Shown in pieces: positions 10,795 through 56,392 of a stretch of 64,000 nucleotides of DNA (position 1 is its first letter; each line of letters starts with the position of its first letter). A program made the translations under genes and the position numbers. The stretch comes from a virus, in IMG/VR virus record IMGVR_UViG_3300034073_004354, positions 83,741 to 147,740 of that record, one strand, 5' to 3'. A model generated the notes under the pieces. It ran no database searches, had not been told where the DNA came from, and was given only the letters and a program-made list of their open reading frames with translations.

Positions 10795-11136
10795 TTATGT
10801 TTTTGTTTTTTTGAATTTTTTCTCAAGTTCGTTTGCTAAACTTGTGAAGTCCATTTTTAAATTGTCATTATGAACTATCAGAAATGCTGTGATGCTGCTA
10901 CACTCTGAATCGGAAATGCCAGCCCATTCCCTTACCTTTTGGGGTAGGTAGTTCACTTGGTTTAGATAAACCATTTTGTTGGAATAAGGATCTTGTTCCC
11001 AACTTCCCAACTCAGAAATATCGCATAGAACTCCCAAAGCACAGTAGCAATCACCGACCCGTAAAGCACCTCTTACTTTTTTATACTTTTGTGAACGTAA
11101 GGCTTCTAGCCATTTTTCAAGGCAGGATTTTTTCAT
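10795..11136 (-). CDS. Conserved phage hypothetical protein (A-L-G-V-L-C-D family)
   Basis: Carries the hallmark of a short protein family common in phages: W-L-E-A-L-R-S-Q-K-Y near the start, then G-A-L-R-V-G-D-C-Y-C-A-L-G-V-L-C-D and L-P-Q-K-V-R-E-W-A-G. The Cys cluster (usually C-C-L-G-V-L-C-D) is changed to C-Y-C-A-L-G. The molecular function of the family is not known. Its ATG overlaps the divergent ATG of the next gene within a single CATG. Confidence 0.75.
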   Translation of the reverse strand: MKKSCLEKWLEALRSQKYKKVRGALRVGDCYCALGVLCDISELGSWEQDPYSNKMVYLNQVNYLPQKVREWAGISDSECSSITAFLIVHNDNLKMDFTSLANELEKKFKKTKT

Positions 11137-11431
11137 GGATGACTCTAAGAATTATATTTATATCATAACTAATGGTGAAGATTATAAAGTTGGATTTAGC
11201 AAGAATCCTAACAAAAGATTAAAGCAATTACAGACTGGCAATTCTAAAAAACTAAAATTGATAAACGTATATCAAGTGCCAGATCGATTAGTTAGGATTA
11301 TAGAAAAAGAAGCACATCGAGAAATTCGCATCAGATATGAAAAACGTGGCGAATGGTTCAAGGGTGCTTCTGAATTTTATGTTAAGCTTTTGGTAGATAT
11401 GGTCTGTGAAAAATACTATCCACAGACCTAG
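11135..11431 (+). CDS. T5orf172 / GIY-YIG-superfamily protein
   Basis: The pattern Y-I-Y-I-I-T-N then Y-K-V-G-F-S-K-N-P-N-K-R-L-K-Q-L-Q-T-G-N is that of the T5orf172/Mug113 domain, a relative of GIY-YIG nucleases. The domain fills the whole 98-residue protein, with E-K-E-A-H-R and G-E-W-F-K at the expected places. It may be a small nuclease or a DNA-binding derivative. SD AGGA is seven bases upstream of the ATG, inside the divergent neighbour. Confidence 0.8.
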   Translation: MDDSKNYIYIITNGEDYKVGFSKNPNKRLKQLQTGNSKKLKLINVYQVPDRLVRIIEKEAHREIRIRYEKRGEWFKGASEFYVKLLVDMVCEKYYPQT

Positions 11432-11460
11432 TGCATTATCTACAATAAAAACGTTGGGGT

Positions 11461-11772
11461 TTAGGCAGCCGAAATGTTTTCAATTTGCGGAAGTGACTTA
11501 ACCTTTTCAATCGTATCTTTTGGAATCTTAATCTTGATTGTAGGTTGAAACATTCTATATTCAGAGTCTAGGGTGTATTTATCTAAACAAAAACTTCCGC
11601 CTAGATCCACTACCGCATTAAGTACCTTAAAGAAGTCAGTTTCATAAATCTTCTTTAATTCTTCGGTTCTTTTTTGACGAAGCTTGTAGTCTGAGCTGTA
11701 ATTATAGGGGACTTGCTCCTGCTTGATTCTAATGGTGCAGTAGACGTACTTCTGCTCAATTTCTTGTGTCAT
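11461..11772 (-). CDS. Small beta-alpha protein, paralogue of 11769-12026 and 40413-40739
   Basis: A beta strand with C-T-I-R-I-K, a helix, then V-V-D-L-G-G-S-F-C-L-D and a closing K-I-P-K-D-T-I-E-K-V-K-S-L-P-Q-I-E-N-I-S. The closing part resembles the gene at 40413 (K-I-P-I-D-V-V-P-L-L-K-G-L). The order and the 'x-x-L-P-x-I/V-E-x-I' end recall peptidase-inhibitor I9/propeptide domains, but that is only a shape-level guess. It overlaps the gene before it by four bases (ATGA). Confidence 0.6.
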   Translation of the reverse strand: MTQEIEQKYVYCTIRIKQEQVPYNYSSDYKLRQKRTEELKKIYETDFFKVLNAVVDLGGSFCLDKYTLDSEYRMFQPTIKIKIPKDTIEKVKSLPQIENISAA

Positions 11773-29718: not shown

Positions 29719-30240
29719 TTATTTTAGTAATCCTGGGTTTTCTTTAACCAGCAGCTTATATTTATTTTTGGTTAGCTTGCCAGCTTTGGAATAAAGAGTT
29801 ACACCGTCTAGATGCTCCATTTCGTGCAAAATAATTCTGGCTTGCCAATCTTCAAATTCCTGCTCAGTGACTTCTCCAGACAAAGTTTGGTAAGAAACCT
29901 TGATGCTAAGGGGTCTTTCTACCTGAACCTTTAGGCTTGGAAAAGAAAGACATTGTTCTTCGGCCTTTACAGTTTCTTCAGATGTGCTAAGCAATCTTGG
30001 ATTAATCATTTTAAGCAATTCATTACCATATTGTTTATTGACGCAGTAACCAATATCAGCTACCAAAACCCGAATAGATAATCCGACTTGTGGTGCCGCC
30101 AAGCCTACGCCACGGGAAGCATACATTGTTACGGCCATATCTGATAAGGTTTTATCTAGTTCTGGACCAAACTCTTCTGGTGTAACTTCACGGCACAAGG
30201 TGGATAGTGATTTGTCTTTATATTTTTTAATTTGAAACAT
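29719..30240 (-). CDS. def: Peptide deformylase
   Basis: Metalloenzyme that removes the N-formyl group from new proteins. Motif I G-V-G-L-A-A-P-Q-V-G is exact. Motif II is E-Q-C-L-S (usual E-G-C-L-S) and motif III is H-E-M-E-H-L-D-G (usual H-E-x-D-H). The metal ligands Cys, His and His and the catalytic Glu are kept, so it should be active. Length 173 aa includes a short C-terminal helix. PDF genes occur in cyanophages and huge phages. Confidence 0.95.
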   Translation of the reverse strand: MFQIKKYKDKSLSTLCREVTPEEFGPELDKTLSDMAVTMYASRGVGLAAPQVGLSIRVLVADIGYCVNKQYGNELLKMINPRLLSTSEETVKAEEQCLSFPSLKVQVERPLSIKVSYQTLSGEVTEQEFEDWQARIILHEMEHLDGVTLYSKAGKLTKNKYKLLVKENPGLLK

Positions 30241-32547: not shown

Positions 32548-32650
32548 ACTATTTTAGAATGGGGTGTTGAATTTAGAGACTAAAGCTATTATTTAAAATA
32601 GTAGATTATTATATCATAAAGTATTATACAATTAATTTTAATAAAATAGT
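32548..32650. repeat. Repeated TAAAATAGT motifs in divergent gap
   Basis: The 182-base gap 32507-32688 between the divergent lipoprotein and giant-protein genes is very AT-rich and has no frame. It contains TAAAATAGT at 32594 and 32642 and its inverse at 32548, spaced about 46-48 bases. This could be an operator array or chance in AT-rich DNA. Confidence 0.35.
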
Positions 32651-32688
32651 TGCTAATTTTAGATAGTAAATTGTCATTGGAGATTATT

Positions 32689-35600
32689 ATGGAAGACAAG
32701 TTAGTAAAGCTTTATAATACAATCAAAAAATCATCGGGCAATCAAAAGGTTTTAAATAATTTATCCGATTTAATATCGGAATTCTCTGATGGAAGCATTA
32801 TTAAAAATGCTTCTGATACAAAAGAAGCTCTTCGTGATAAGCTTAGGCGTCGGAACGAAGCACCTGCTAAGGTAGAAGAAGCAGGAAGAGAAAAAGAACT
32901 TATTGGTGGAGGCGAAAGTAGCCCACTACCAGACAGTAATGAAGATAAGCCTGAAGCTATACCTGCACCTAAAGATGAGCCTAAGAACCAAACTGATAGC
33001 ACCAAATCAAATGTGAATACTAGTGATGTAAAAAAACCAGAAGGCAAAGGTAAAGGTGGGGATACATCTTTTAATCCATTTTCAAAAGGCTCTAAAGCTA
33101 AGGGTCTATTTCCCAAATCAGACGTACCAAAGGCGAGTGTAGGTTCTGAAGGTAAAACCCCAACCCCAAAAATGGAAATACCAAAAGGTAAAGAAAAGAC
33201 GCAGATAGAAATGGAGTTTGAAGAATTTCTAAAAGACAGACTTAATGATCCTATGCTTAAAATCTATGAAGATGTTATAAGAAGGGACCGCCAGTTTTAT
33301 CCTTATGGCAAGACTCTAGAAGAAATATTTCCTGAACATTATAAAGAAGTATCAGTAGGCAAAGGAGCAACCGGCAAACAAGTGCCTTCAACAAAAGATG
33401 CGCCAAAAGATGCACCAAAAGATGATGAAAAGAAAGTTGTACCTGCGGCACCTAAGGTTGAAGAAGTTGTTACAGAATACATTGAAGCAAAGGGCCCAAA
33501 GCCCATAACTATTGATAATGATGAACGATTATATAAACTCGACAGTGGTATTTTAAGTATATATACTGTTGGTGGTAAATTTCTCTATAATCTAGATATA
33601 AAAACTATTGTACATTTAGAAGAGCCTCGTATTTTATACGAAAAAAATGTATTTACATTGGTTAACGAAAATAATGAGCCGTATAATATTGTGCTTGATG
33701 AAAATACACAACAAATTTATAATGAAGCACAAGAAAATATAACTCAACCTGAATACATTAAAGAGGATGATGAGGGCCAGTTTAATGATGTAAGATTACC
33801 GCCAGCCCCTGCAGAAGGTGTTCAAGAAGCCGGCATTGCACCACCACAAGATGAAAAGAACAAAGAAGTGGATGATAAAATAAGTGAGCTAAGAAATCAC
33901 ATCAAAGATACAATAGGCCCAAATACAGCGCTATTCAATGTGGCAACAGAAATAGTTAATAACTACGAAGAACAGATGAGAATAAATCCAAAATCTAAAA
34001 AACTAAAAATAGAAGATATTAATAATATAATAAATTTGAAAAACTATGATGAAGGCCGAGGTGGTCGTCTTATCCCAAGTATTAAGAACATGAATATTGC
34101 AGGAAAAATAAAAGCGGCAATACCGGCAATTAATGATATGAAAATCAATGAATTCAGGCAGTCGCTACTTTCTGAAAAGCCTACAGAAACAGCCGAAGTA
34201 AATGAATCACCACCAGCCGAAGATGTGGCTGTCGCAGAAAAGCCTAGTGGAGCAGCACAGCCTAATAAGGAAGTAACCTTTGCTGAAGGTGAATCCCCTG
34301 TTGAAGAAATACTGGGCCATAGATTATACATGGACTTTCAAATTGTGAACGCCGGTGTTCCGCCAACTGAACCCGCGGTAAAAGAAAAATATGATAAAAT
34401 ATATGAATTAGAAGGATTTGATACTTCTTATCATACTAAATATAAAGAAAATAAAGAACTTATAGATAGTATTTACCATTTAAATATGGACAATGACGCG
34501 TACGCTTCAAGTGTTAATTTTTCTGTAGAAAGTGCATTTAATCGTGCATATACAGTCTTTGTCTTGCTGGGTATCATAAAGGATGATTCAGATTTAAATG
34601 AGATGATTAGAGGAATTAATAAAGTTAGTATTAAAAATAATAATGAAGATTCAAAAATATATACGACCTATTTGAATATGACAAAAGATATACAACTTTT
34701 AAAAGATTTTAATGTAGATGACCTAAGTGAACAAGACAAACGAGCACAAAATAAGTTGGACTTTTGTAGGCTTTATCTATCAGAGAGTGATAGCCTAGAG
34801 GATATATTACCTTTCAATATAGATGACGCTGTTATTAATATCTACCAACCAGTTGGAGAAGGTCGTCTTTCATTTGCTATTAAAGACGTTATTGATCGCG
34901 TTTTTAATATAGCAAAAATATACGAATTTTATAACAACCATAATAGTGAGAGAGGTTATGCTTCTAATGTTTCTGCCGAACTTTTTATATCTAGATTTAA
35001 TCTAGATTTAATTAGATTTAATTATATCAACCATATTAAACTTAGTAATCACTGGCGCTCTAAGTATGATAAAATAAAAAAAATCAAAGACGCAGAAGGT
35101 TTTGATAATGCTATTATTCAAGAAGCATATAAAAATAATAAAACAAAAGCTGATAAAATATACTCAACAGAATTGGAAGATAGTTCAAGTATCCTAATGC
35201 GAAGAAGTAATCAAGACGTTATTAACCGCCTATTTGAAGTATTTAAATTTTCAAATTTGGTTGATGAGTCCGATATTCCTGCCGAAGAAAATGTGGGGGC
35301 TTATGAACAAACTTTTGATGAAGATATTATATCGTCAGAATTTGAGTCAGTATTATTGCGCATAAATAAAGACGTAACTACATTGGGCAAGATAAATGCC
35401 GATACTCTTTCGCCCGAATTGAAAGTTAATTATGAAGATATTATTAAATCTCGTAACTTGCTTGATTCAAAAAATATTATAGCAACATTTATGAACCATA
35501 AAGATAAGAAAATTATTATAAGTGATCTACTAAAGATAGTTAGTGACACCAAAGAATATTATACTGGAGAAGAAACAGACAAACAGCTTATTGAACGTAT

Positions 35601-37695
35601 GTCCAAATACCTTAATTTTATTAAGAATAAAATTTCAAATACTCCCCCAACAGAGAAAGAACTTACCGAAGTTAAAACTCCAGCTGATATAAACCCTGAA
35701 TTGGTGACTGAATTTTCAGAACAAGAACAAACAGCAGAACCTGCTCAAAGTACAACAGAAACTGTATACAATGAAAATGATGAAGTAAAAGAAAAACTCT
35801 CGAAAAGAATAAACGATGACTTCGATAAATTAAAGAAAATTAATACAGATGAACTTAACCAAGATAAACTAAAAAAATATAATGATGTTGAAAAACTTAA
35901 TATAAGTAAGGCTTTAGCAGCAGTTAGTAATATATTCGAAGAAAAAAAGTATGAACTTTCAAGTCTGTATCTTTTAGAAGAAAAAAATATCCAACAACAC
36001 ATGACAGATACTGACGTTATTGACCGACTATTTAAATTGTCTAACCTAATCCAAACAGAACCTACTTCTGAACCTGCAGCTGAAGCTGCAACTACTGTTA
36101 GGATTCCAGCGCAGTCGAATGACCTAGGGCTATCTGGTGATATCAGTCAGGCCACTATGCTAGGTTTGGTTGGCTATATAAATAGGCTTAATGGCTTAGG
36201 CGGCAGTAGGGATACAGACGTTATAAATTATCATAATAGTACAAAAGAAAAAATCATTCCAATAATAAATGAAATATTTAGACTAGCCAAGAAACGTGGT
36301 GATTATTACTCAACATTTAAGACCCTTAAAAAAGAGATTGATGAATTAGCTGAAAAACCAAATGCCAGTAAGACAGTACAAGTTGCTAAATATTTAAATG
36401 ATTTAATCTCACAATTTGAAACTGCAAAAAATGATTTAGAAGCAAAAATCAAAGAAAAGGAAGAACAAGACTCAAAAGCTAAGCAAGAAGCTGAGTCCAC
36501 CAAGACTTCAGAGTTACAAAATAAGATTCAACAACTACCAGAATATTTTTCCAATGCTTTTAATACTTTAATTAGTATGTCTGATGATCAAAAAATAATA
36601 CAATTAAAAAGCGGCAAGGATGTAAACGTTGAAGATTATTTTAAGAATACAATCTTCGTCATTCCAAGTATCCCTAATATAGATGATTTTGTTGAAAAAA
36701 TGAGTCATGAAATTTCCAATAGTACAAAACTTGGAGATAAACTTGTAGAAATCTGGATCGACAAAAGAAGTAATGAATTTTATAATAGAAAAATTAATGA
36801 AAAAATTTATAATACCGGATTCTTGGTCCAAAAGTACATGCGGCCTAGACCTACTAAAAAACAAGAGGATACAACCGATCCATCTGGTACAAAACAAGAA
36901 ACGCATCCTGCACCTAGTGAAAAAGCTGAAAAAGCTGAAGAAGCTACAAGAACTAGCATGGATGATTTACTTAATATGATTGGTCAAACACCGGAGAAAA
37001 GTGTAGCAGAACCAACTGCATCTGAAACTGCAACTGAAGATAGGCCACCTGCAACCAAAGAAGTCAATCAACCAGAGAAAGAAGGTAGAACAAGACAAAA
37101 TCAAAATCAAAATCAAAACCAAAGAGCACTTGGTAGATTGCTTAGTACTAGAACAGAAGGAGCACCTGGGGGCCTTGCTGAAAAGATTGTGACGCCAGTA
37201 GTCGAACCAGAAGTAACAGCACCGCCAGCAGAACCTTCCGAACCACCATCAAAACCAGCAGAGTTACCACCAACACCACAACCACCACCCGAAATTCAAG
37301 AGCCCAAGGTGGTTAAGAAAGCTGATAAACTATTAAAATTTATAAAAGATACCAATCAAAATCGTGACATTGTTATTGTAGGAAATGATAAAGGTAATAA
37401 AAAATATTCACTTTATAGGGGTGAAGACACTAATAATGAATGGGTGTATTTTGAGGGTGTTATTATCGAAAATAAGAAAGCAAAATACAACAACATAAGC
37501 CAACCAGAAGGTGTAAATACAGCTTTAGAACAGCTTCGTGAGATAGCAGATCTTGATAAATATATAAAAGATAGCAATGTCGAAGTAAATGAAGTTAATA
37601 CGGCAAAAAAACAAGGGCTTATAGACTTAAACAGTATCTTAATTAGTGAGAGAACAATTAACAATACAAATACATTTAACAAGCTATTAGTTTAA
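32689..37695 (+). CDS. Giant repetitive protein (1668 aa), probable internal virion protein
   Basis: Start ATG 32689 with GGAG upstream. It begins with an amphipathic leader (M-E-D-K-L-V-K-L-Y) and a Lys/Glu/Pro-rich ~200-residue region. Between bases ~34680 and ~36050 there are three degenerate repeats containing [K/D]-D-[I/V/F]-x-x-L-x-x-[I/F]-N-x-D-x-L and a partner D-V-I-[D/N]-R-[L/V]-F. Pro/Thr/Glu-rich linkers follow, with N-Q repeats near 37100, and a small globular C-terminus. No enzyme motif is visible. Size and leader suggest an injected internal protein, a scaffold or a tail component; none is proved. Confidence 0.7.
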   Translation: MEDKLVKLYNTIKKSSGNQKVLNNLSDLISEFSDGSIIKNASDTKEALRDKLRRRNEAPAKVEEAGREKELIGGGESSPLPDSNEDKPEAIPAPKDEPKNQTDSTKSNVNTSDVKKPEGKGKGGDTSFNPFSKGSKAKGLFPKSDVPKASVGSEGKTPTPKMEIPKGKEKTQIEMEFEEFLKDRLNDPMLKIYEDVIRRDRQFYPYGKTLEEIFPEHYKEVSVGKGATGKQVPSTKDAPKDAPKDDEKKVVPAAPKVEEVVTEYIEAKGPKPITIDNDERLYKLDSGILSIYTVGGKFLYNLDIKTIVHLEEPRILYEKNVFTLVNENNEPYNIVLDENTQQIYNEAQENITQPEYIKEDDEGQFNDVRLPPAPAEGVQEAGIAPPQDEKNKEVDDKISELRNHIKDTIGPNTALFNVATEIVNNYEEQMRINPKSKKLKIEDINNIINLKNYDEGRGGRLIPSIKNMNIAGKIKAAIPAINDMKINEFRQSLLSEKPTETAEVNESPPAEDVAVAEKPSGAAQPNKEVTFAEGESPVEEILGHRLYMDFQIVNAGVPPTEPAVKEKYDKIYELEGFDTSYHTKYKENKELIDSIYHLNMDNDAYASSVNFSVESAFNRAYTVFVLLGIIKDDSDLNEMIRGINKVSIKNNNEDSKIYTTYLNMTKDIQLLKDFNVDDLSEQDKRAQNKLDFCRLYLSESDSLEDILPFNIDDAVINIYQPVGEGRLSFAIKDVIDRVFNIAKIYEFYNNHNSERGYASNVSAELFISRFNLDLIRFNYINHIKLSNHWRSKYDKIKKIKDAEGFDNAIIQEAYKNNKTKADKIYSTELEDSSSILMRRSNQDVINRLFEVFKFSNLVDESDIPAEENVGAYEQTFDEDIISSEFESVLLRINKDVTTLGKINADTLSPELKVNYEDIIKSRNLLDSKNIIATFMNHKDKKIIISDLLKIVSDTKEYYTGEETDKQLIERMSKYLNFIKNKISNTPPTEKELTEVKTPADINPELVTEFSEQEQTAEPAQSTTETVYNENDEVKEKLSKRINDDFDKLKKINTDELNQDKLKKYNDVEKLNISKALAAVSNIFEEKKYELSSLYLLEEKNIQQHMTDTDVIDRLFKLSNLIQTEPTSEPAAEAATTVRIPAQSNDLGLSGDISQATMLGLVGYINRLNGLGGSRDTDVINYHNSTKEKIIPIINEIFRLAKKRGDYYSTFKTLKKEIDELAEKPNASKTVQVAKYLNDLISQFETAKNDLEAKIKEKEEQDSKAKQEAESTKTSELQNKIQQLPEYFSNAFNTLISMSDDQKIIQLKSGKDVNVEDYFKNTIFVIPSIPNIDDFVEKMSHEISNSTKLGDKLVEIWIDKRSNEFYNRKINEKIYNTGFLVQKYMRPRPTKKQEDTTDPSGTKQETHPAPSEKAEKAEEATRTSMDDLLNMIGQTPEKSVAEPTASETATEDRPPATKEVNQPEKEGRTRQNQNQNQNQRALGRLLSTRTEGAPGGLAEKIVTPVVEPEVTAPPAEPSEPPSKPAELPPTPQPPPEIQEPKVVKKADKLLKFIKDTNQNRDIVIVGNDKGNKKYSLYRGEDTNNEWVYFEGVIIENKKAKYNNISQPEGVNTALEQLREIADLDKYIKDSNVEVNEVNTAKKQGLIDLNSILISERTINNTNTFNKLLV

Positions 37696-38162: not shown

Positions 38163-38531
38163 ATGAAAGATAAACTAAAAAAACTAGCTCAAGAAATTAA
38201 ACAATGGGATTTGGAAAGATGCTATCAAATTGAAAAATTAGCTGGCAGATATGACAAAGCAATTTCACCACCTCCTGAAGGTTTACAGCATTGTATTAAA
38301 TATATAATCTATCTAAAACTAATGAGAAATTTAGATGATGCTTCATTCCACGCCTTAAAAAGAAAGTATCGAGATACCAAAACCGAAATACAGCTAGAAT
38401 GTCAAAAAGAATTAGATAAATTAATTTTAGAAGATGCTATTAAACAGAAAATCCCTTCTTCGACCATAAGAAGGGAGTTTCAAGATAGATTTGAAAAGTA
38501 TTTTCCAACATATATAAAAGAAGATTCTTAA
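38163..38531 (+). CDS. Hypothetical helical basic protein (122 aa)
   Basis: Entirely helical and Lys-rich (M-K-D-K-L-K-K-L-A-Q-E-I-K). No good SD precedes the ATG; the short AT-rich gap to the divergent gene is only 39 bases. Its stop is nine bases from the structured RNA on the other strand. Function unknown. Confidence 0.55.
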   Translation: MKDKLKKLAQEIKQWDLERCYQIEKLAGRYDKAISPPPEGLQHCIKYIIYLKLMRNLDDASFHALKRKYRDTKTEIQLECQKELDKLILEDAIKQKIPSSTIRREFQDRFEKYFPTYIKEDS

Positions 38532-38540
38532 AAATAAGAT

Positions 38541-38696
38541 AAAGTCAGGATGGGATTTTAACCCACCTCCTCTCCTAAAAGAACGTTAGTATTGCAAATT
38601 GAAAGAAAATCAAATAAAGATTAATTTGCAATTAATTTTATATTTTGCGAGCGCTCTGTAGTTCTTTCTACTAGGTATCATTGAGCTACTGACTTT
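38541..38696 (-). ncRNA. tRNA-like structured RNA, copy 1
   Basis: On the minus strand the ends pair as an 8-bp acceptor-like stem (AAAGTCAG / CTGACTTT). Next comes TAGCTCA ... GAGC as in a D-arm, but the loop carries a 24-base insert with its own GTAG/CTAC hairpin. The 3' half has a T-arm-like stem GTGGG-TTAAAAT-CCCAT. Instead of an anticodon arm there is a ~75-base AT-rich section closed by CTC/GAG. No CCA is encoded. Copy 2 at 39067-39232 keeps the helices with compensatory changes, which supports a real RNA. Confidence 0.6.
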
Positions 38697-39057
38697 ACTT
38701 ATTGTTTAAGAATGTTCTCAAATTAAACACAATTTCTTCTTTAGCTTTATTAGAAATAAGATTACTGTCCAAAACTTCTTCCAGCGAAGTGTCTAAAAAC
38801 TTTTTCTTATTTTTCTGTTTTAACTTCCAAATAAGTTTAATATCAACAAACTCACCAATCCCACTTGGCCAAAAAACTTTTTTAACTATCAGAAAGAATC
38901 TACTTCCACGGATGTTAAATATTTCTGCATCTGGTGAATAGGCTGGACCTATTTTTGTTAGTACAAAAGTATTCAAACTATTTAATTCATTTATTTTCTT
39001 CTGAAATCTGTCTTGGGCATCTTCATAGCTCTCAAATAAATTGTCTAATGAAATCAT
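38695..39057 (-). CDS. Small cap-motif family protein between the two structured RNAs
   Basis: Start at M-I-S-L-D-N-L-F (39057); the longer frame would translate part of structured RNA copy 2. The end, S-L-E-E-V-L-D then E-E-I-V-F-N-L-R-T-F-L, matches the cap of the 56-61.6 kb array. Middle part is beta-rich. The stop codon overlaps the 5' end of structured RNA copy 1 by two bases, so RNA, gene and RNA are probably on one transcript. Confidence 0.6.
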   Translation of the reverse strand: MISLDNLFESYEDAQDRFQKKINELNSLNTFVLTKIGPAYSPDAEIFNIRGSRFFLIVKKVFWPSGIGEFVDIKLIWKLKQKNKKKFLDTSLEEVLDSNLISNKAKEEIVFNLRTFLNNK

Positions 39058-39066
39058 GTTGCACCA

Positions 39067-39232
39067 AAAGCCGGGGCGGGATTTTAACCCGCCTCCTCTC
39101 CTAACTATTAGGTATATAATACAAACTGGAAGAAGCCTATCGGCTAATCTGTATCTCAAATGCTTAAAAACATAGAATCTTATGGAGCGCTCTGTAGTTC
39201 CTCCTACTAAGTATCATTGAGCTACCGGCTTT
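39067..39232 (-). ncRNA. tRNA-like structured RNA, copy 2
   Basis: Minus-strand acceptor-like stem AAAGCCGG / CCGGCTTT, D-arm-like TAGCTCA ... GAGC with the same insert as copy 1 (one or two transitions), T-arm-like GCGGG-TTAAAAT-CCCGC. Compared with copy 1, both strands of the acceptor and T stems change together. The section replacing the anticodon arm differs in sequence but is again closed by CTCC/GGAG. No CCA. Not a normal tRNA and not a recognisable tmRNA. Confidence 0.6.
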
Positions 39233-40412: not shown

Positions 40413-40739
40413 TCATTCCTTATATGATATCAATTCTACCTGCGCTAGTCCTTTTAATAGTGGCACAACATCTATTGGAATTTTAGCCATAATAATAGAT
40501 GTTGTACCTATACCATCGTTATTGCAATATTCATAGATAGTATCTTCTGATATTATTCCGCCATGCTTAGTAATAAAATTACAAACAATAAAAAAATTTG
40601 TAGTGGTGTCAAATCTAGATTTTCTTATTTGTTCTGCAAATTCCGAAGCCTGCTTGTTTAGATCTGAAGTTTTCTTTATTTTTTTTAGGTCTATAGAAAC
40701 TTTTAAGATCTGAATTTTACAATTTAAAAAGTTATTCAT
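40413..40739 (-). CDS. Small beta-alpha protein, third paralogue of 11461-11772
   Basis: Layout as at 11461-12026: N-C-K-I-Q-I-L, helix, F-I-T-K-H-G-G-I, then K-I-P-I-D-V-V-P-L-L-K-G-L and V-E-L-I-S. The ATG is only ten bases from the 3' end of the tRNA-Thr-like gene and has no SD, so it may be translated from a processed, nearly leaderless RNA. Function unknown. Confidence 0.55.
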   Translation of the reverse strand: MNNFLNCKIQILKVSIDLKKIKKTSDLNKQASEFAEQIRKSRFDTTTNFFIVCNFITKHGGIISEDTIYEYCNNDGIGTTSIIMAKIPIDVVPLLKGLAQVELISYKE

Positions 40740-40748
40740 AATAAATAA

Positions 40749-40820
40749 AAAGAGGGTCTGGATTTCGAGCCAGAATCTCCTAGATACAACCTAGGGCTTT
40801 GAAGATTAAGCTACCCTCTA
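40749..40820 (-). tRNA. tRNA-Thr-like gene (anticodon TGT), degenerate
   Basis: Acceptor with a mismatched first pair, D-arm GCTT/AAGC lacking the usual GG, a perfect anticodon stem CCTAG/CTAGG with loop GTTGTAT (anticodon TGT), and T-arm TCTGG/CCAGA whose loop has eight bases (CTCGAAAT). No CCA is encoded. Reads ACA if functional. Confidence 0.65.
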
Positions 40821-40882
40821 TGATATTTATACGATAAGGTCTATACCCTTTCAATAAAAGATTAAACTTTAAAATTATATTT

Positions 40883-43800
40883 TTAAAATCCAACTCCGAA
40901 CTCACCAGACTTCTGCCTGGCAAGAAGCAGTTTTGCATTTTTATAAGTTTCTTTTGCCACCTTGATTTGTTGTTGTATAGAGAAATTATCTAAAATCTTA
41001 TCAATGTATTTTGATACCATATCAGGTGTAACTACGGTTCCAGTCTCAGAGATCATTCCCTTGATGGTTTCTCGGTCTTCATTTGTTAGATCAGAAATCT
41101 CAAAGGCTGCACCATATTTTCCATGAATAAAGCCAAGGATTGTTTCTGCATGTTCTTTGTAGTTTACAACGAAACCCCTAATTAAATCTAACCACAGTTC
41201 ATCAATTCCTTTTCTAATAACGTCACCAGTAGCACCTTCAAGTTTACTTACCCACAAATCATAGTCTGATTCTTTTAGGTCTTTAACTGGCAAGAATGTC
41301 TCCAAGTAATACTTTAAGATAGACTTAGCATCTTCCTTGGACAATTCACCGACCACCATAACCTTAGCGAAGCGTCTAAGCATGGGGGTTGGAATTCTTT
41401 TTGGATGGTTTGTAGCACCCCAAATTGAAATGCCTGGATAGGCAACAACACCATCCATTAGATTCTGGAATTCTAAGGAAAGGTTAATCTTGGATGTTGA
41501 TTGGTCATCATTTAAGATCATATCAATTTCATCAATTAAAATATATACTGGACGACCAGAAGACTTATGAAGTTTAATTGCTTCATCAAACAACCTCTTT
41601 GGATTCTTTTGTGCTTCACCTAGCCAGCAGGTTAAAAAATCGGATCCTACAGCAAAGATTGCAATGCTATCTGGATCTGAAGAAAGTGACCTCAGAACCT
41701 CGGTATTATGATTCATCATTCCGTTTGCAGCAAAGCTTTCTGCACCTGGGACAACAAGATCATACACTGGATGCTCACCAGTGTTTTCTACTGATACGAT
41801 CTTTGACCAACGATACTGTGTTGAGCCTAAAGAATCTGTGATCTCCTTTGACTTTTGGGATGGATTTAATAAAGAGAGTAGTTGAGCAAGAGTTTCTCGA
41901 CTCGGCAGAGCCTTACCAGAAGAATAATTCCAAAGCTTCTTGTGAGTAGATCTAGGAAGCTCTCCAGATTCTGACTTTAGAATCTTCCATAGATCTTTCG
42001 AAATGGGTACTTGATCATAGTTATGGTTAGCCTTGACTTCTAATTCACTAACTTTTGCTTGTTTTCTTGGAAGTCTAAATCCAATCTTTTGATAGAAGGA
42101 CCGTGCATCATCACCATAAATATTAAGTCTCCATGCTTTTTCGGTGTGTCTAGATACTCTAGAAATAATCCCAAATGAAGTAAGCATTAGTTGAACCTGT
42201 CTAATAAGTTTTTCACTATTAGTTCCAAACTCAATTCTTTGACCATAGCTAGAGCCATCAGAGTCAAACAATCCTGACAAGTATGCTCTCCACGATTCTT
42301 TATTTCCCTCCAAAATATACTTTGGAGTTACTTTATTTGCTGCAAGTCTGCCGCAATCTGCTAGTAATTCTTTGTTTTCTGATGAAAGCTTCATAGCCCT
42401 TACAGAATATGCCTGTCCATCATACTTATATACCTTTGGTTCACAAAAGTGCTTTGAGATTAGTCCAACAACTTTTTCATTAAAGTAATCCCAATCTTGA
42501 TCTCCAACGGTAATATTCATACTCTTATAAAGACCTTCTTTATTATACTCTCCATTTCCATCTCCCACGTAATAACCCAAAACATAAGCTTTGTCTGGAT
42601 CAACTAGGTTTGGTCCGGCTGGAAGTTCTTCTCTTACAATTGCAACGTAATCACCTTCTTTAATTTGATCTAATCTCTTCCAGTCTGGACCGGAATCGGT
42701 TGCTACAATTACACGGTGCTTTGCAGTTCCTTCTATTTTGAATCCAAAACGATCTTCAATCTTAATACAAGGCTGAATACCGGAATCATAAAAGTGGCTT
42801 GATTGAGTCATTCCAATAGTAGATCTTACCCCGACCTTTATAGGATGGTAGCCATCTGAGTCAACTGGTCCTGGCTGTAGTTCTAAAATTGTTTTTAGAC
42901 CACGATCAGTAAAGATCATAGTATCTCCACGAACGCACTTTCCGCATCCCTGAGGCCCTACTAACAGGACGTTTGCTTTATCTGTAGACTTAGATGGTGA
43001 GGTTGCTAAGAATAGTGGGCTCCATTTCTTTGCCTCATCCATTCCTGAAATAAAAGTACGAACTTCATCAAAGCCACTACCCCAAATATTGTTTAAATTT
43101 ACATGAGGCTTTTCACCGGGAATAATCTCAATAGCACCTGGGGACTCACCAGTAAACATATTTCCGGTTCCAATTCTACAAACATAGAATGAGTTTTCAA
43201 GAACGAAGAAGTTTCTTTCAATTACTTTTAGTTTAAGTACCTCACTTACAATGTCCTGCACACTTTCGCCTTCTGCCATTAGGTCAGCAACCTTTTGGAT
43301 GGACTTGTTTTGATGTTCTAAAGCAAACTTTTCGGTCTTAGAGAAAGCACGCTCTGGTGGCCTTTGTGTAATCTGTGATAGATCTAGGCTTTCCACAACG
43401 TCAATAAAATCACGATGTACCTTTTTTAGGTCAACAGATAGCAATTTCCAGACAGGCTCGCCTATAATTTGCTTTAATTTAATAACTAGTCTTAGAACTG
43501 AGTCAACAGTCGGCATAGAAATTTCCGACCATCTGATTAGTTGACTTCCTGGAACTGTAATCCACTTCCAAATTTCATCATTTTTGGCGGCCTCAATCAT
43601 GGCATTTGCACGATGAATTGTATAAGCGCTCAACTCATCTTTAGAATGACCTGATTCAATTTCACCAACCTTATCTAGGTTTTCCCAAATTAAAATAGAA
43701 ACGTCGGTAAGTGTAGCGGAATTCTGACCCTCATACTTACATAGTACCATTCCATTAGAATGGCGGTGTCTTAGACGTTCATAATAATGTTCAAAATTCC

Positions 43801-44431
43801 TACTCTGGGCTTGAAGATATTGCTCGTATAACCTAGGAATCTTTTCTAAGATTGCCAAGCCCTGCATAAAAGTTGCGCTGGCACCACGATTAATTTGCTG
43901 CTCTAAGGCAAGCCCTTTGATGGTATCCTCAGAGCCTTGCTGTAAAGAGTTAAATAGTGCCTTTACTCTTTCTTCACCCAGCTCTAGCGAAGCACCATTT
44001 AGTTGTGTAGACCATTTATTTAATGTTTCATCCAAAGAAACCATTTTAGAACTACAAAGCAGTTCAGAGCCTTGAACCAAGGCTGAATAAATATTTACAA
44101 TGTGTTCATAATGTGAAGAGATGATAACAGAAATATCAATAGGACTAGAGTTATTGGATACTACATCTTGCTGCTTATCTAAGCCGTCAAAAATCTTCTT
44201 TGCTTCCTTGCGTCTTTTGGCATACCCTTCGCCACTTACTTGCTTCCTAAACTCCTTAGCTTGCTTAGCGATCTTTTCATATCTATCAAGATTTTCCTTC
44301 ATCATAGGAAGTAGTTCGCGGATCTGACCAATCTCATCAGCTTTTGTGGCTCTAATAATATTAGCGTATTTAATTGGGTTGTCTGATGCTGTTTGACTTA
44401 GGATAACTGCCGCAAGCTCTTGAGTATCCAT
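40883..44431 (-). CDS. AAA ATPase split by a LAGLIDADG intein
   Basis: After removal of the 411-residue intein the ATPase has 771 residues. The intein interrupts Walker A between G-P-Q-G-C-G-K and T. Downstream are Walker B V-Y-I-L-I-D-E-I-D, sensor-1 W-G-A-T-N-H-P and the arginine finger L-R-R-F-A-K. The N-terminal ~490 residues are helical and unfamiliar; they may bind substrates. It ends F-G-V-G-F, like the ATPase at 26564. Without splicing the enzyme cannot bind ATP. SD and a consensus promoter lie upstream. Role unknown; remodelling or DNA-associated motor are options. Confidence 0.88.
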   Translation of the reverse strand: MDTQELAAVILSQTASDNPIKYANIIRATKADEIGQIRELLPMMKENLDRYEKIAKQAKEFRKQVSGEGYAKRRKEAKKIFDGLDKQQDVVSNNSSPIDISVIISSHYEHIVNIYSALVQGSELLCSSKMVSLDETLNKWSTQLNGASLELGEERVKALFNSLQQGSEDTIKGLALEQQINRGASATFMQGLAILEKIPRLYEQYLQAQSRNFEHYYERLRHRHSNGMVLCKYEGQNSATLTDVSILIWENLDKVGEIESGHSKDELSAYTIHRANAMIEAAKNDEIWKWITVPGSQLIRWSEISMPTVDSVLRLVIKLKQIIGEPVWKLLSVDLKKVHRDFIDVVESLDLSQITQRPPERAFSKTEKFALEHQNKSIQKVADLMAEGESVQDIVSEVLKLKVIERNFFVLENSFYVCRIGTGNMFTGESPGAIEIIPGEKPHVNLNNIWGSGFDEVRTFISGMDEAKKWSPLFLATSPSKSTDKANVLLVGPQGCGKCVRGDTMIFTDRGLKTILELQPGPVDSDGYHPIKVGVRSTIGMTQSSHFYDSGIQPCIKIEDRFGFKIEGTAKHRVIVATDSGPDWKRLDQIKEGDYVAIVREELPAGPNLVDPDKAYVLGYYVGDGNGEYNKEGLYKSMNITVGDQDWDYFNEKVVGLISKHFCEPKVYKYDGQAYSVRAMKLSSENKELLADCGRLAANKVTPKYILEGNKESWRAYLSGLFDSDGSSYGQRIEFGTNSEKLIRQVQLMLTSFGIISRVSRHTEKAWRLNIYGDDARSFYQKIGFRLPRKQAKVSELEVKANHNYDQVPISKDLWKILKSESGELPRSTHKKLWNYSSGKALPSRETLAQLLSLLNPSQKSKEITDSLGSTQYRWSKIVSVENTGEHPVYDLVVPGAESFAANGMMNHNTEVLRSLSSDPDSIAIFAVGSDFLTCWLGEAQKNPKRLFDEAIKLHKSSGRPVYILIDEIDMILNDDQSTSKINLSLEFQNLMDGVVAYPGISIWGATNHPKRIPTPMLRRFAKVMVVGELSKEDAKSILKYYLETFLPVKDLKESDYDLWVSKLEGATGDVIRKGIDELWLDLIRGFVVNYKEHAETILGFIHGKYGAAFEISDLTNEDRETIKGMISETGTVVTPDMVSKYIDKILDNFSIQQQIKVAKETYKNAKLLLARQKSGEFGVGF
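41705..42937 (-). other. Intein with LAGLIDADG homing endonuclease (411 aa)
   Basis: Cys1 is at 42937-42935 in C-V-R-G-D-T-M-I, and the C-terminus is M-M-N-H-N at 41705 followed by Thr+1. The splicing Thr and His lie in G-T-A-K-H-R-V. The homing endonuclease is intact by eye: both motifs are present (V-L-G-Y-Y-V-G-D-G and L-S-G-L-F-D-S-D-G), followed by a helix-turn-helix-like insert. Insertion at Walker A is a favoured intein site in ATPases. Confidence 0.93.
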
Positions 44432-54987: not shown

Positions 54988-56088
54988 TTATTTTCTGGTT
55001 AGGTAATCATTGCCGACCAATTTATAAGCAATTCGATTTGGAATTGTGATTGCATCTCTTCCTGCATAAAAAACTTGTTCACCATCCCAACGTAAAACAA
55101 TACCTTCTCGGATGTTATCTCCGCTTAGTAAAGTTTTACCTTCTGCCATACTGACAATAGCAGATGGAATTCCTTCACCGGCTTGCCAAATGACCCTATC
55201 TACAACAGGAACAGTTGGAATAGAAATATTCTGGCAGAAAGCTAATAACTCCTCCCAAGTCAAATATCTATTCTTATTTGAATCCCAGCAATCAAATGCT
55301 ACAAATCTCGCCGTATCTTGTCCGTACTTTAAGTCTTGGACTGGACCATAGACTTCGCCATATAAAGCATACCCAGGATAATCTTTTAATTTATCTGCTA
55401 GTCCTTCCCTTTGAGCCACTTCCCACCACAGACCTCCAGTATCTTCACCTTCCGGTTCCTTCTTGAATAGGGTTCTGGATCTGGCCCAGAATTTTAATTC
55501 TCCCTGGTATGGAAGCCAACCATAACAAGCATTTGTACCATGGATCTTTTCTGTAATCCAGACCTGAGAACCATCAGGGATATACTTCCAGCCTTTACTG
55601 AGCGATTCTACATCGTACTTTGCCGTACCCAAAAGGCCATGTGGTCCGCTGGTTGGACGACCAGATTGAAAACCAAAGCGTCCCCCACTTTGAATCGGAG
55701 CAATATATTTTTTTAATTCCAAAAGTGCAGTAACTTCTCGGTTAGTTTTAAACTTCCATTCATCAGGCAATGGCACCATCAAACCACGACTGATAATGCC
55801 GCGAAGCTTTACAGTTTTAATTCTGGCATATCCATCGCTCTTTGCCATCTTCTGCATGTGGGCAAAGTAAGGATGGGACACTGGCACCATAGGGTCATTA
55901 ACAGAGTCAATCCAGATACCTTGATCACCCTCTGAGAATTGACCTTTCTTTACTACGGCAAAGTTTACACCAGACCCATCGGGTGAAACTAGATCTAGTA
56001 AATCAGCATTGGGATGCTTAATTACCTTTTGAATAGTAACCACCTCTGCTAGAGGATTTGCATCGGAATATTCTTCAACAGTAAACAT
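54988..56088 (-). CDS. RNA ligase, Rnl5/DRB0094-type
   Basis: The N-terminal ~150 residues are an OB-like domain (K-H-P-N-A-D-L-L-D-L) as in the DRB0094 family. The nucleotidyltransferase motifs follow: I, T-E-K-I-H-G-T-N with the AMP-accepting Lys; IIIa-like Y-G-E-V-Y-G-P; IV, R-E-G-I-V-L-R; and V, Y-K-L-V-G. ATG 56088 follows GGAGTATAAA. It probably repairs tRNAs or other RNA nicked by host defence. The stop of the neighbouring paralogue supplies the SD. Confidence 0.9.
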   Translation of the reverse strand: MFTVEEYSDANPLAEVVTIQKVIKHPNADLLDLVSPDGSGVNFAVVKKGQFSEGDQGIWIDSVNDPMVPVSHPYFAHMQKMAKSDGYARIKTVKLRGIISRGLMVPLPDEWKFKTNREVTALLELKKYIAPIQSGGRFGFQSGRPTSGPHGLLGTAKYDVESLSKGWKYIPDGSQVWITEKIHGTNACYGWLPYQGELKFWARSRTLFKKEPEGEDTGGLWWEVAQREGLADKLKDYPGYALYGEVYGPVQDLKYGQDTARFVAFDCWDSNKNRYLTWEELLAFCQNISIPTVPVVDRVIWQAGEGIPSAIVSMAEGKTLLSGDNIREGIVLRWDGEQVFYAGRDAITIPNRIAYKLVGNDYLTRK

Positions 56089-56089
56089 T

Positions 56090-56392
56090 TTATACTCCAA
56101 ATATATCTAGGTTCCAGATTATTTTTTCCTTGATATCTTCTGGGCAAAGATCAAAGAATTCTTCAAAAGTTACTGGCTTATATAGAAATTCAATATCTAG
56201 CTCGTTAATATGCCTTAGGTATTTTATTTTAATCCCTCCTTCTATTAGGAGGTAGACTTGAAACTTTAATTTTTGATCTTTAATATAGAAGTGATTGTAG
56301 AATTCACCAGGAGTGATAAAGTCTAAATCTGCTATTTTATCTAGGGCTTCGTAATATTTCTTGGTGTAGTCATCAGAACTATCATGACTCAT
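56090..56392 (-). CDS. Small cap-motif family protein (array end)
   Basis: N-terminal D-L-D-F-I-T-P-G-E-F-Y-N-H-F matches the 'D-F-L-x-x-G-E-F' subgroup (57879, 60059); cap F-E-E-F-F-D-L-C-P then K-I-I-W-N-L-D-I-F. The last codons (GGA GTA TAA) form the SD of the RNA ligase. Function unknown. Confidence 0.65.
   Translation of the reverse strand: MSHDSSDDYTKKYYEALDKIADLDFITPGEFYNHFYIKDQKLKFQVYLLIEGGIKIKYLRHINELDIEFLYKPVTFEEFFDLCPEDIKEKIIWNLDIFGV

Follow-up and report, generated by a model that had tools for sequence, protein, structure and literature searches.

The locus examined here raises the question of whether two minus-strand segments that resemble tRNAs at their ends encode an RNA of their own and, if so, what kind of RNA it is and what it might do. 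The segments were analysed within a window of 64,000 nucleotides, by which we mean the whole stretch of DNA under study; it corresponds to bases 83,741-147,740 of an IMG/VR virus record of 147,740 bases. The virus, a large tailed phage, encodes a portal and an intein-split terminase. A sequence-only reading had located two tRNA-like copies on the minus strand, and its coordinates and strand proved exact: copy 1 (166 nt) occupies 39067-39232 and copy 2 (156 nt) occupies 38541-38696. In an alignment of the two, the ends are nearly identical and the middle has diverged, identity reaching 90% over the 48 nt of the D side and 87% over the 38 nt of the T side. Very probably the copies are two paralogous versions of a single small, structured non-coding RNA, a judgement based on two sequences from one uncultivated phage genome. 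That the minus strand is the RNA strand is shown by the covariation and by G-U pairs in several helices, which would turn into A-C mismatches if the opposite strand were read. Unless otherwise indicated, the features described below are on this strand.

Fold and covariation of the two copies

Each copy has the skeleton of a tRNA, in which an acceptor helix, U8, a D stem and a T stem follow one another in tRNA order and with tRNA spacing. The acceptor helix, of 8 bp, is paired in both copies and is followed by U8 and A9 and then by a D stem, GCUC/GAGC, which likewise pairs in both. Adjoining the acceptor is a T-arm-like helix, also formed in both copies, whose 6-bp stem carries the loop UUAAAAU (GGCGGG-UUAAAAU-CCCGCC at 39075-39093 in copy 1; GGUGGG-UUAAAAU-CCCAUC at 38549-38567 in copy 2). 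The acceptor-like, D-arm-like and T-arm-like parts that had been ascribed to the two copies are therefore all capable of pairing in both. The sequence changes quoted earlier were exact and the compensations real, two of them falling in the acceptor helix and one in the T helix. Besides these three pairs changed on both sides, the two helices show a single G-C/G-U exchange and keep all their pairs intact, an outcome produced by random placement of the substitutions in about 2 of 100,000 trials (p ~2e-5) and, with transitions only, in 8 of 10,000 (p ~8e-4).

The middle of the RNA had been described as an AT-rich section that replaces the anticodon arm. The replacement stands; the notion of mere AT-rich filler does not, as in both copies the section contains a covarying arm of 10 outer and 4 inner pairs, with a pyrimidine bulge of 6-7 nt on the 3' side. 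In copy 1 this central arm spans 39118-39155, with the bulge UCUUCC at 39128-39133, and in copy 2 it spans 38591-38632, with the bulge UCUUUC at 38601-38606. When the copies are aligned by the copy 1 model, the inner and outer parts of the arm together show four double and three single compensations.

As the sequence-only reading had noticed, the D loop carries an insert with its own hairpin, and it is present in both copies (UAGU-AGGAGGA-ACUA at 39195-39209 in copy 1; UAGU-AGAAAGA-ACUA at 38659-38673 in copy 2). Loop bases of this hairpin (GGAGGA at 39199-39204 and GAAAGA at 38663-38668, respectively) are complementary over 6 bp to the bulge of the central arm, as UCUUCC/GGAGGA in copy 1 and UCUUUC/GAAAGA in copy 2. 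The only two substitutions in the insert loop are both matched in the bulge, by one double and one single compensatory change; all six pairs form within each copy, and cross-pairing of loop 2 with bulge 1 breaks one. The null for this pairing was 0.005 and 0.016 for the individual copies, and base composition would in part account for a purine loop pairing with a pyrimidine bulge. These observations suggest that the insert loop at 39199-39204 probably docks on the bulge at 39128-39133 (copy 1 positions) as a kissing interaction. In its predicted fold, the D-insert strand of copy 2 is able to pair with GUUCUUUU instead.

A further element common to the copies is a single-stranded purine strand, UUAGGAGAGGAGG, which contains AGGAGG and is identical in both (39092-39104 in copy 1; 38566-38578 in copy 2). 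Pairing of this strand with the pyrimidine bulge is also possible and is retained as an alternative. The purine strand and the strands of the D arm and its insert are the features kept almost unchanged, and either could be a contact surface.

Taken as a whole, the model comprises 45 pairs in eight helices, every one of which is formed in each copy, with eight pairs altered on both sides, five on one side and none broken. When the partners were slid by one to three columns, 37-52% of the cells were paired and 0-1 doubles were seen, and just one of 500 column shuffles matched the full model. A covariance model built from copy 1 alone, central arm included (R1), recovered copy 2 with a score of 108 bits (E = 1e-22). 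Against 200 shuffles each, copy 1 folded better than all (z -3.4) and copy 2 better than 190 (z -1.8). The unknotted target fold lies 13 kcal/mol above the predicted minimum in copy 1 and 3.4 kcal/mol above it in copy 2, partly because it includes an unsupported helix, CUC/GAG, closing the middle section; this helix is the same in both copies and carries an energy cost in copy 1, and is therefore not claimed here. The predicted fold of copy 1 also contains two additional private hairpins. The case for the structure rests on covariation, because in copy 1 the full model is not favoured by secondary-structure energies taken by themselves. Neither the D stem nor the stem of the D insert varies between the copies, so that they have no covariation of their own; of the D-arm-like pairing proposed earlier, the pairing itself holds in both copies and the covariation does not extend to it.

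Relation to tRNAs, tmRNA and other phage RNAs

The copies had been characterized as neither a normal tRNA nor a tmRNA, and the gene finders agree: ARAGORN and cmscan detect the other tRNAs of the window and miss the copies. Those detected by ARAGORN and Rfam are three ordinary tRNAs (Ser, Arg and Ile) located elsewhere in the window. CCA is encoded in all three of these normal phage tRNAs, whereas neither copy encodes it, as had been stated. With an ordinary phage tRNA (RF00005) the copies share the order and spacing of acceptor helix, U8, D stem and T stem; they differ in having no anticodon arm, no G18G19 and no CCA, an A56 without a matching base 19, a T stem of 6 bp and a hairpin inserted in the D loop. 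Neither copy contains a 5-bp anticodon stem with a 7-nt loop and U33, and exhaustive splicing of the middle section gave at most four of the five pairs. The D loop, in which G18G19 is absent, consists of AAUGAUAC plus the insert, and the T loop has UUAAAAU, a sequence shared with other viral tRNAs, in place of UUCRANY. Position 56, which is C in nearly all tRNAs, is A in the copies, so that a 19-56 pair would be A-A; the usual elbow contact would then be missing, unless something else, conceivably the kissing pair, takes its place.

In a sample of viral tRNAs (L198-L338 and other loci), the two positions of the 19-56 elbow pair appear to be exchanged together: C56 occurs with G19 in 162 of 164 cases, U56 with A19 in 5 of 5, G56 with C19 in the single case and A56 with U19 in about 13 of 19, the A56 group being biased by the search pattern and the U56 and G56 groups not.

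Like tmRNA (RF00023), the copies combine a tRNA-like half with a replaced anticodon arm. In contrast to tmRNA, they are only 156-166 nt long, show no tag ORF, possess a D stem and have G-C, not G-U, at 3:70 in both copies. This assignment was rejected; ARAGORN reported no tmRNA, and the best tmRNA score in a low-threshold cmscan was 7.1 bits, for a T-arm fragment only. No Rfam 15 family matched either copy at gathering score, and the PyrR, RefA9 and thermometer matches in the low-threshold scan were discarded as far under the cut-off and off-register.

Among known RNAs, the species 1 RNA of phage T4 comes nearest in kind, by analogy and with no sequence relation. T4 species 1 RNA (rnaC) and species 2 RNA (rnaD), annotated as misc_RNA of 139 and 119 nt, are, like the copies, small phage RNAs situated by tRNA genes, and neither matches an Rfam family at the gathering cut-off. 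We know of no function for either. Resembling the copies, rnaC has a T arm (canonical in its case) at its end and a long non-tRNA centre; it differs in its standard UUCGAAU T loop and in its predicted fold, in which no kissing pair between a D insert and a central arm was seen. A search of the T4 stretch (L322) with R1 gave no match, and no sequence relation to rnaC was detected.

Long D-loop hairpins like those of the copies occur in two tRNA-like elements of a large tRNA-rich virus (IMGVR_UViG_3300044606_000144; L115), at 666-763 and 776-876 on its minus strand, the first of which has no CCA and a T loop UUAAAGU. These elements differ in having short or ordinary anticodon arms and no central bulged arm, and R1 reached only 26.5 bits on this locus (E 0.02). 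The same record carries a 113-nt tRNA-like element with a long hairpin as its anticodon arm (L451:1501-1613, minus strand). The elements of this virus appear to share a style with the copies, common descent being undemonstrated. A further viral tRNA (L235:9438-9563, minus strand) has CUCAUAA as its anticodon loop and, between positions 38 and 39, an insertion of ~54 nt that forms its own hairpin.

Searches for relatives in other genomes

No orthologue was found by exact-pattern scans of IMG/VR or of the 84,980 prokaryote genomes of GTDB. The IMG/VR patterns were ACTACAGAGCGCTC and GCTCAATGN{103,133}GGTTAAAATCC, together with TAGCTCAATGN{12,40}AGAGC and GNGGGTTAAAATCCCNC, for which the statement applies among the matches listed; as such scans need exact short words, absence of orthologues is unproven. 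Pattern matches that were fetched and tested for acceptor and T pairing included no homologue, several being two adjacent normal tRNAs. The element gave short chance matches only in a blastn search of phage records, and R1 returned tRNAs and weak matches only over 1.4 Mb of other viral loci. Phage relatives identified through TerL (L323-L334, 69-100% identity) contained no element in the fragments compared, nor did the relative identified through the AAA gene (L335) in its fragment; the near-identical record G001 ends before the element region and is uninformative on presence. At the corresponding position behind its AAA gene, L335 may carry a degenerate tRNA-like hairpin, though this folds no better than many of its shuffles. 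Also in L335, directly downstream of the AAA gene (10999-11620), lies a gene for a protein with an SGGPDS motif, recognised by eye, that is TilS-like (tRNA-Ile-lysidine synthetase). Among open-licence literature we found no published description of an element like the copies. The sequence-only reading had named a lack of further homologues with compensatory changes as counting against it, and on this point the outcome is divided: no orthologue was found, yet the paralogues carry eight compensatory pairs.

Genomic surroundings and possible roles

Between the copies lies a 120-aa ORF (38695-39057), with an ATG that follows copy 1 by 9 nt and a stop codon that shares 2 nt with the start of copy 2. 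The earlier label of a cap-family gene finds no support, as no relatives of the ORF were detected in Pfam, PHROGs, PADLOC or PDB or by tblastn, and its AlphaFold model is of low confidence (pLDDT 58) and has no fold match. A terminator-like hairpin with a U-run is located at 38452-38476, 65 nt downstream of copy 2; the window holds five terminator-like sites against 1.6 expected, and promoter-like sites are no commoner in it than chance. The R1 model also revealed a third atypical tRNA-like element, of 73 nt, at 40749-40821, which was missed by ARAGORN and the fast Rfam scan and scored 35.1 bits as an Rfam tRNA in a focused scan. This element has a D loop without GG, a T loop of 8 nt, no CCA and a UGU-like anticodon loop, and lies 10 nt upstream of another small ORF (40413-40739), which extends to tRNA-Ser.

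On balance, we favour the interpretation that the copies are stable tRNA-derived phage RNAs with a binding role. The RNA would descend from a tRNA in which the acceptor and T-arm half was retained and the decoding half became a long bulged arm, the bulge docking over ~6 bp on the loop of the D-loop insert hairpin. Its transcription would either be shared with the 120-aa ORF or start at a promoter immediately before copy 1, and the RNA would probably be excised by enzymes recognising the top half of a tRNA, RNase P at the 5' end and RNase Z or exonucleases at the 3' end. The product would be a discrete, stable RNA of roughly 155-165 nt, unable to decode. It is regarded as non-decoding because no anticodon arm can be rebuilt and no CCA is encoded; tRNA-style processing is put forward because the ORF is packed tightly against both copies, the terminator-like site after copy 2 being counted as support. 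As for the binding role, a factor of the host or the phage that holds on to the acceptor/T-arm half could be baited or regulated by the RNA, or binding could alternatively go through the invariant single-stranded AGGAGAGGAGG strand. Candidate functions would be those of a decoy, a scaffold or processing punctuation. A bolder and rather unlikely version of this proposal would make the copies a new class of phage RNA, in which a kissing hairpin in the D loop fastens the top half of a tRNA to an arm that does not decode, and whose purpose during infection would be to occupy the ribosome, via AGGAGAGGAGG, a defence nuclease that cuts tRNAs or an enzyme that acts on them.

Phages are known to carry tRNAs. 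The copies discard decoding and retain precisely that half of a tRNA which enzymes of processing, modification and delivery recognise. Beside the two stable RNAs that neighbour the T4 tRNAs, whose job has, to our knowledge, been open for decades, they would place another, independent phage RNA whose fold is well supported and open to test; if expressed, they would supply concrete material for finding out what RNAs of this kind bind. The case also shows that tRNA finders overlook atypical tRNA-derived phage genes.

The tight fit of the ORF between the copies also admits a reading in which the copies mark the ends of its message, as tRNAs serve as processing punctuation in mitochondrial transcripts. 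RNase P and RNase Z cuts would then release a short mRNA with a 9-nt leader, and the RNAs themselves would be by-products; the small ORF at 40413-40739 is likewise bracketed, by the third tRNA-like element and tRNA-Ser. We consider this unlikely, however, as an ordinary tRNA would suffice, the central arm, kissing loop and invariant purine strand would go unexplained, and small phage genes are packed tightly anyway.

Equally unlikely, in our estimate, is a cis-regulatory function in which translation of the 120-aa ORF is controlled by copy 1 as a structured 5' leader, either by its AGGAGG or by a factor bound to it, copy 2 being a duplicate or a 3' element. Copy 1 does lie directly upstream of an ATG that has little Shine-Dalgarno sequence of its own, with the invariant AGGAGAGGAGG 34-36 nt before it. 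Yet copy 2 retains the purine strand with only the terminator-like site, and no gene, downstream on the same strand, and the two ends of the RNA are joined by the acceptor helix, the arrangement of a free-standing molecule.

The copies could also be tRNA pseudogenes in decay that were duplicated together with flanking DNA and merely inherited their fold. This would suit a region that holds another odd tRNA lacking the D-loop GG and CCA (40749-40821), and a degenerate tRNA may likewise occupy the corresponding position in a related phage, L335; with eight double compensations among 45 pairs and none broken, however, the pattern is not that of decay, and we judge this reading very unlikely. Hardly credible is an intron-containing or disrupted tRNA gene, from which insertions in the D loop and anticodon arm would be spliced out to leave a normal tRNA: both insertions do lie within a clear tRNA skeleton and other viral tRNAs (L115, L235) carry insertions at the same places, but the splicing reconstruction, aimed at an alternative that the sequence-only reading had itself raised against its view, yielded no 5-bp anticodon stem by any excision, its best solutions had different and unsupported anticodons in copies 1 and 2, the central section has a conserved and compensated structure of its own, and there is neither a CCA nor an Rfam intron match.

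Several other genes were noted in the course of the analysis. A 1681-aa low-complexity ORF, rich in proline and glutamate (32650-37695), is on the plus strand, opposite to its neighbours, and has no Pfam or PHROG match. The AAA ATPase gene of the window (40883-44431) contains an intein with a LAGLIDADG-type domain, as does the terminase large subunit gene at L190:15094-17949 (minus strand). GroEL is encoded at 810-2429, and a second GroEL-like ORF, starting MAKLLEYGNDARQKV..., was recognised by eye in another part of the phage genome, at L191:8965-10620 (minus strand). An ORF at 29719-30240 with the motif HEMEHLDGV, also identified by eye, is probably a peptide deformylase. Finally, an RNA ligase with a PHA02142-type OB fold is encoded at 54988-56100; it shares ~27-31% identity with RNA ligases from Pseudomonas and other phages and is a possible tRNA-repair enzyme.
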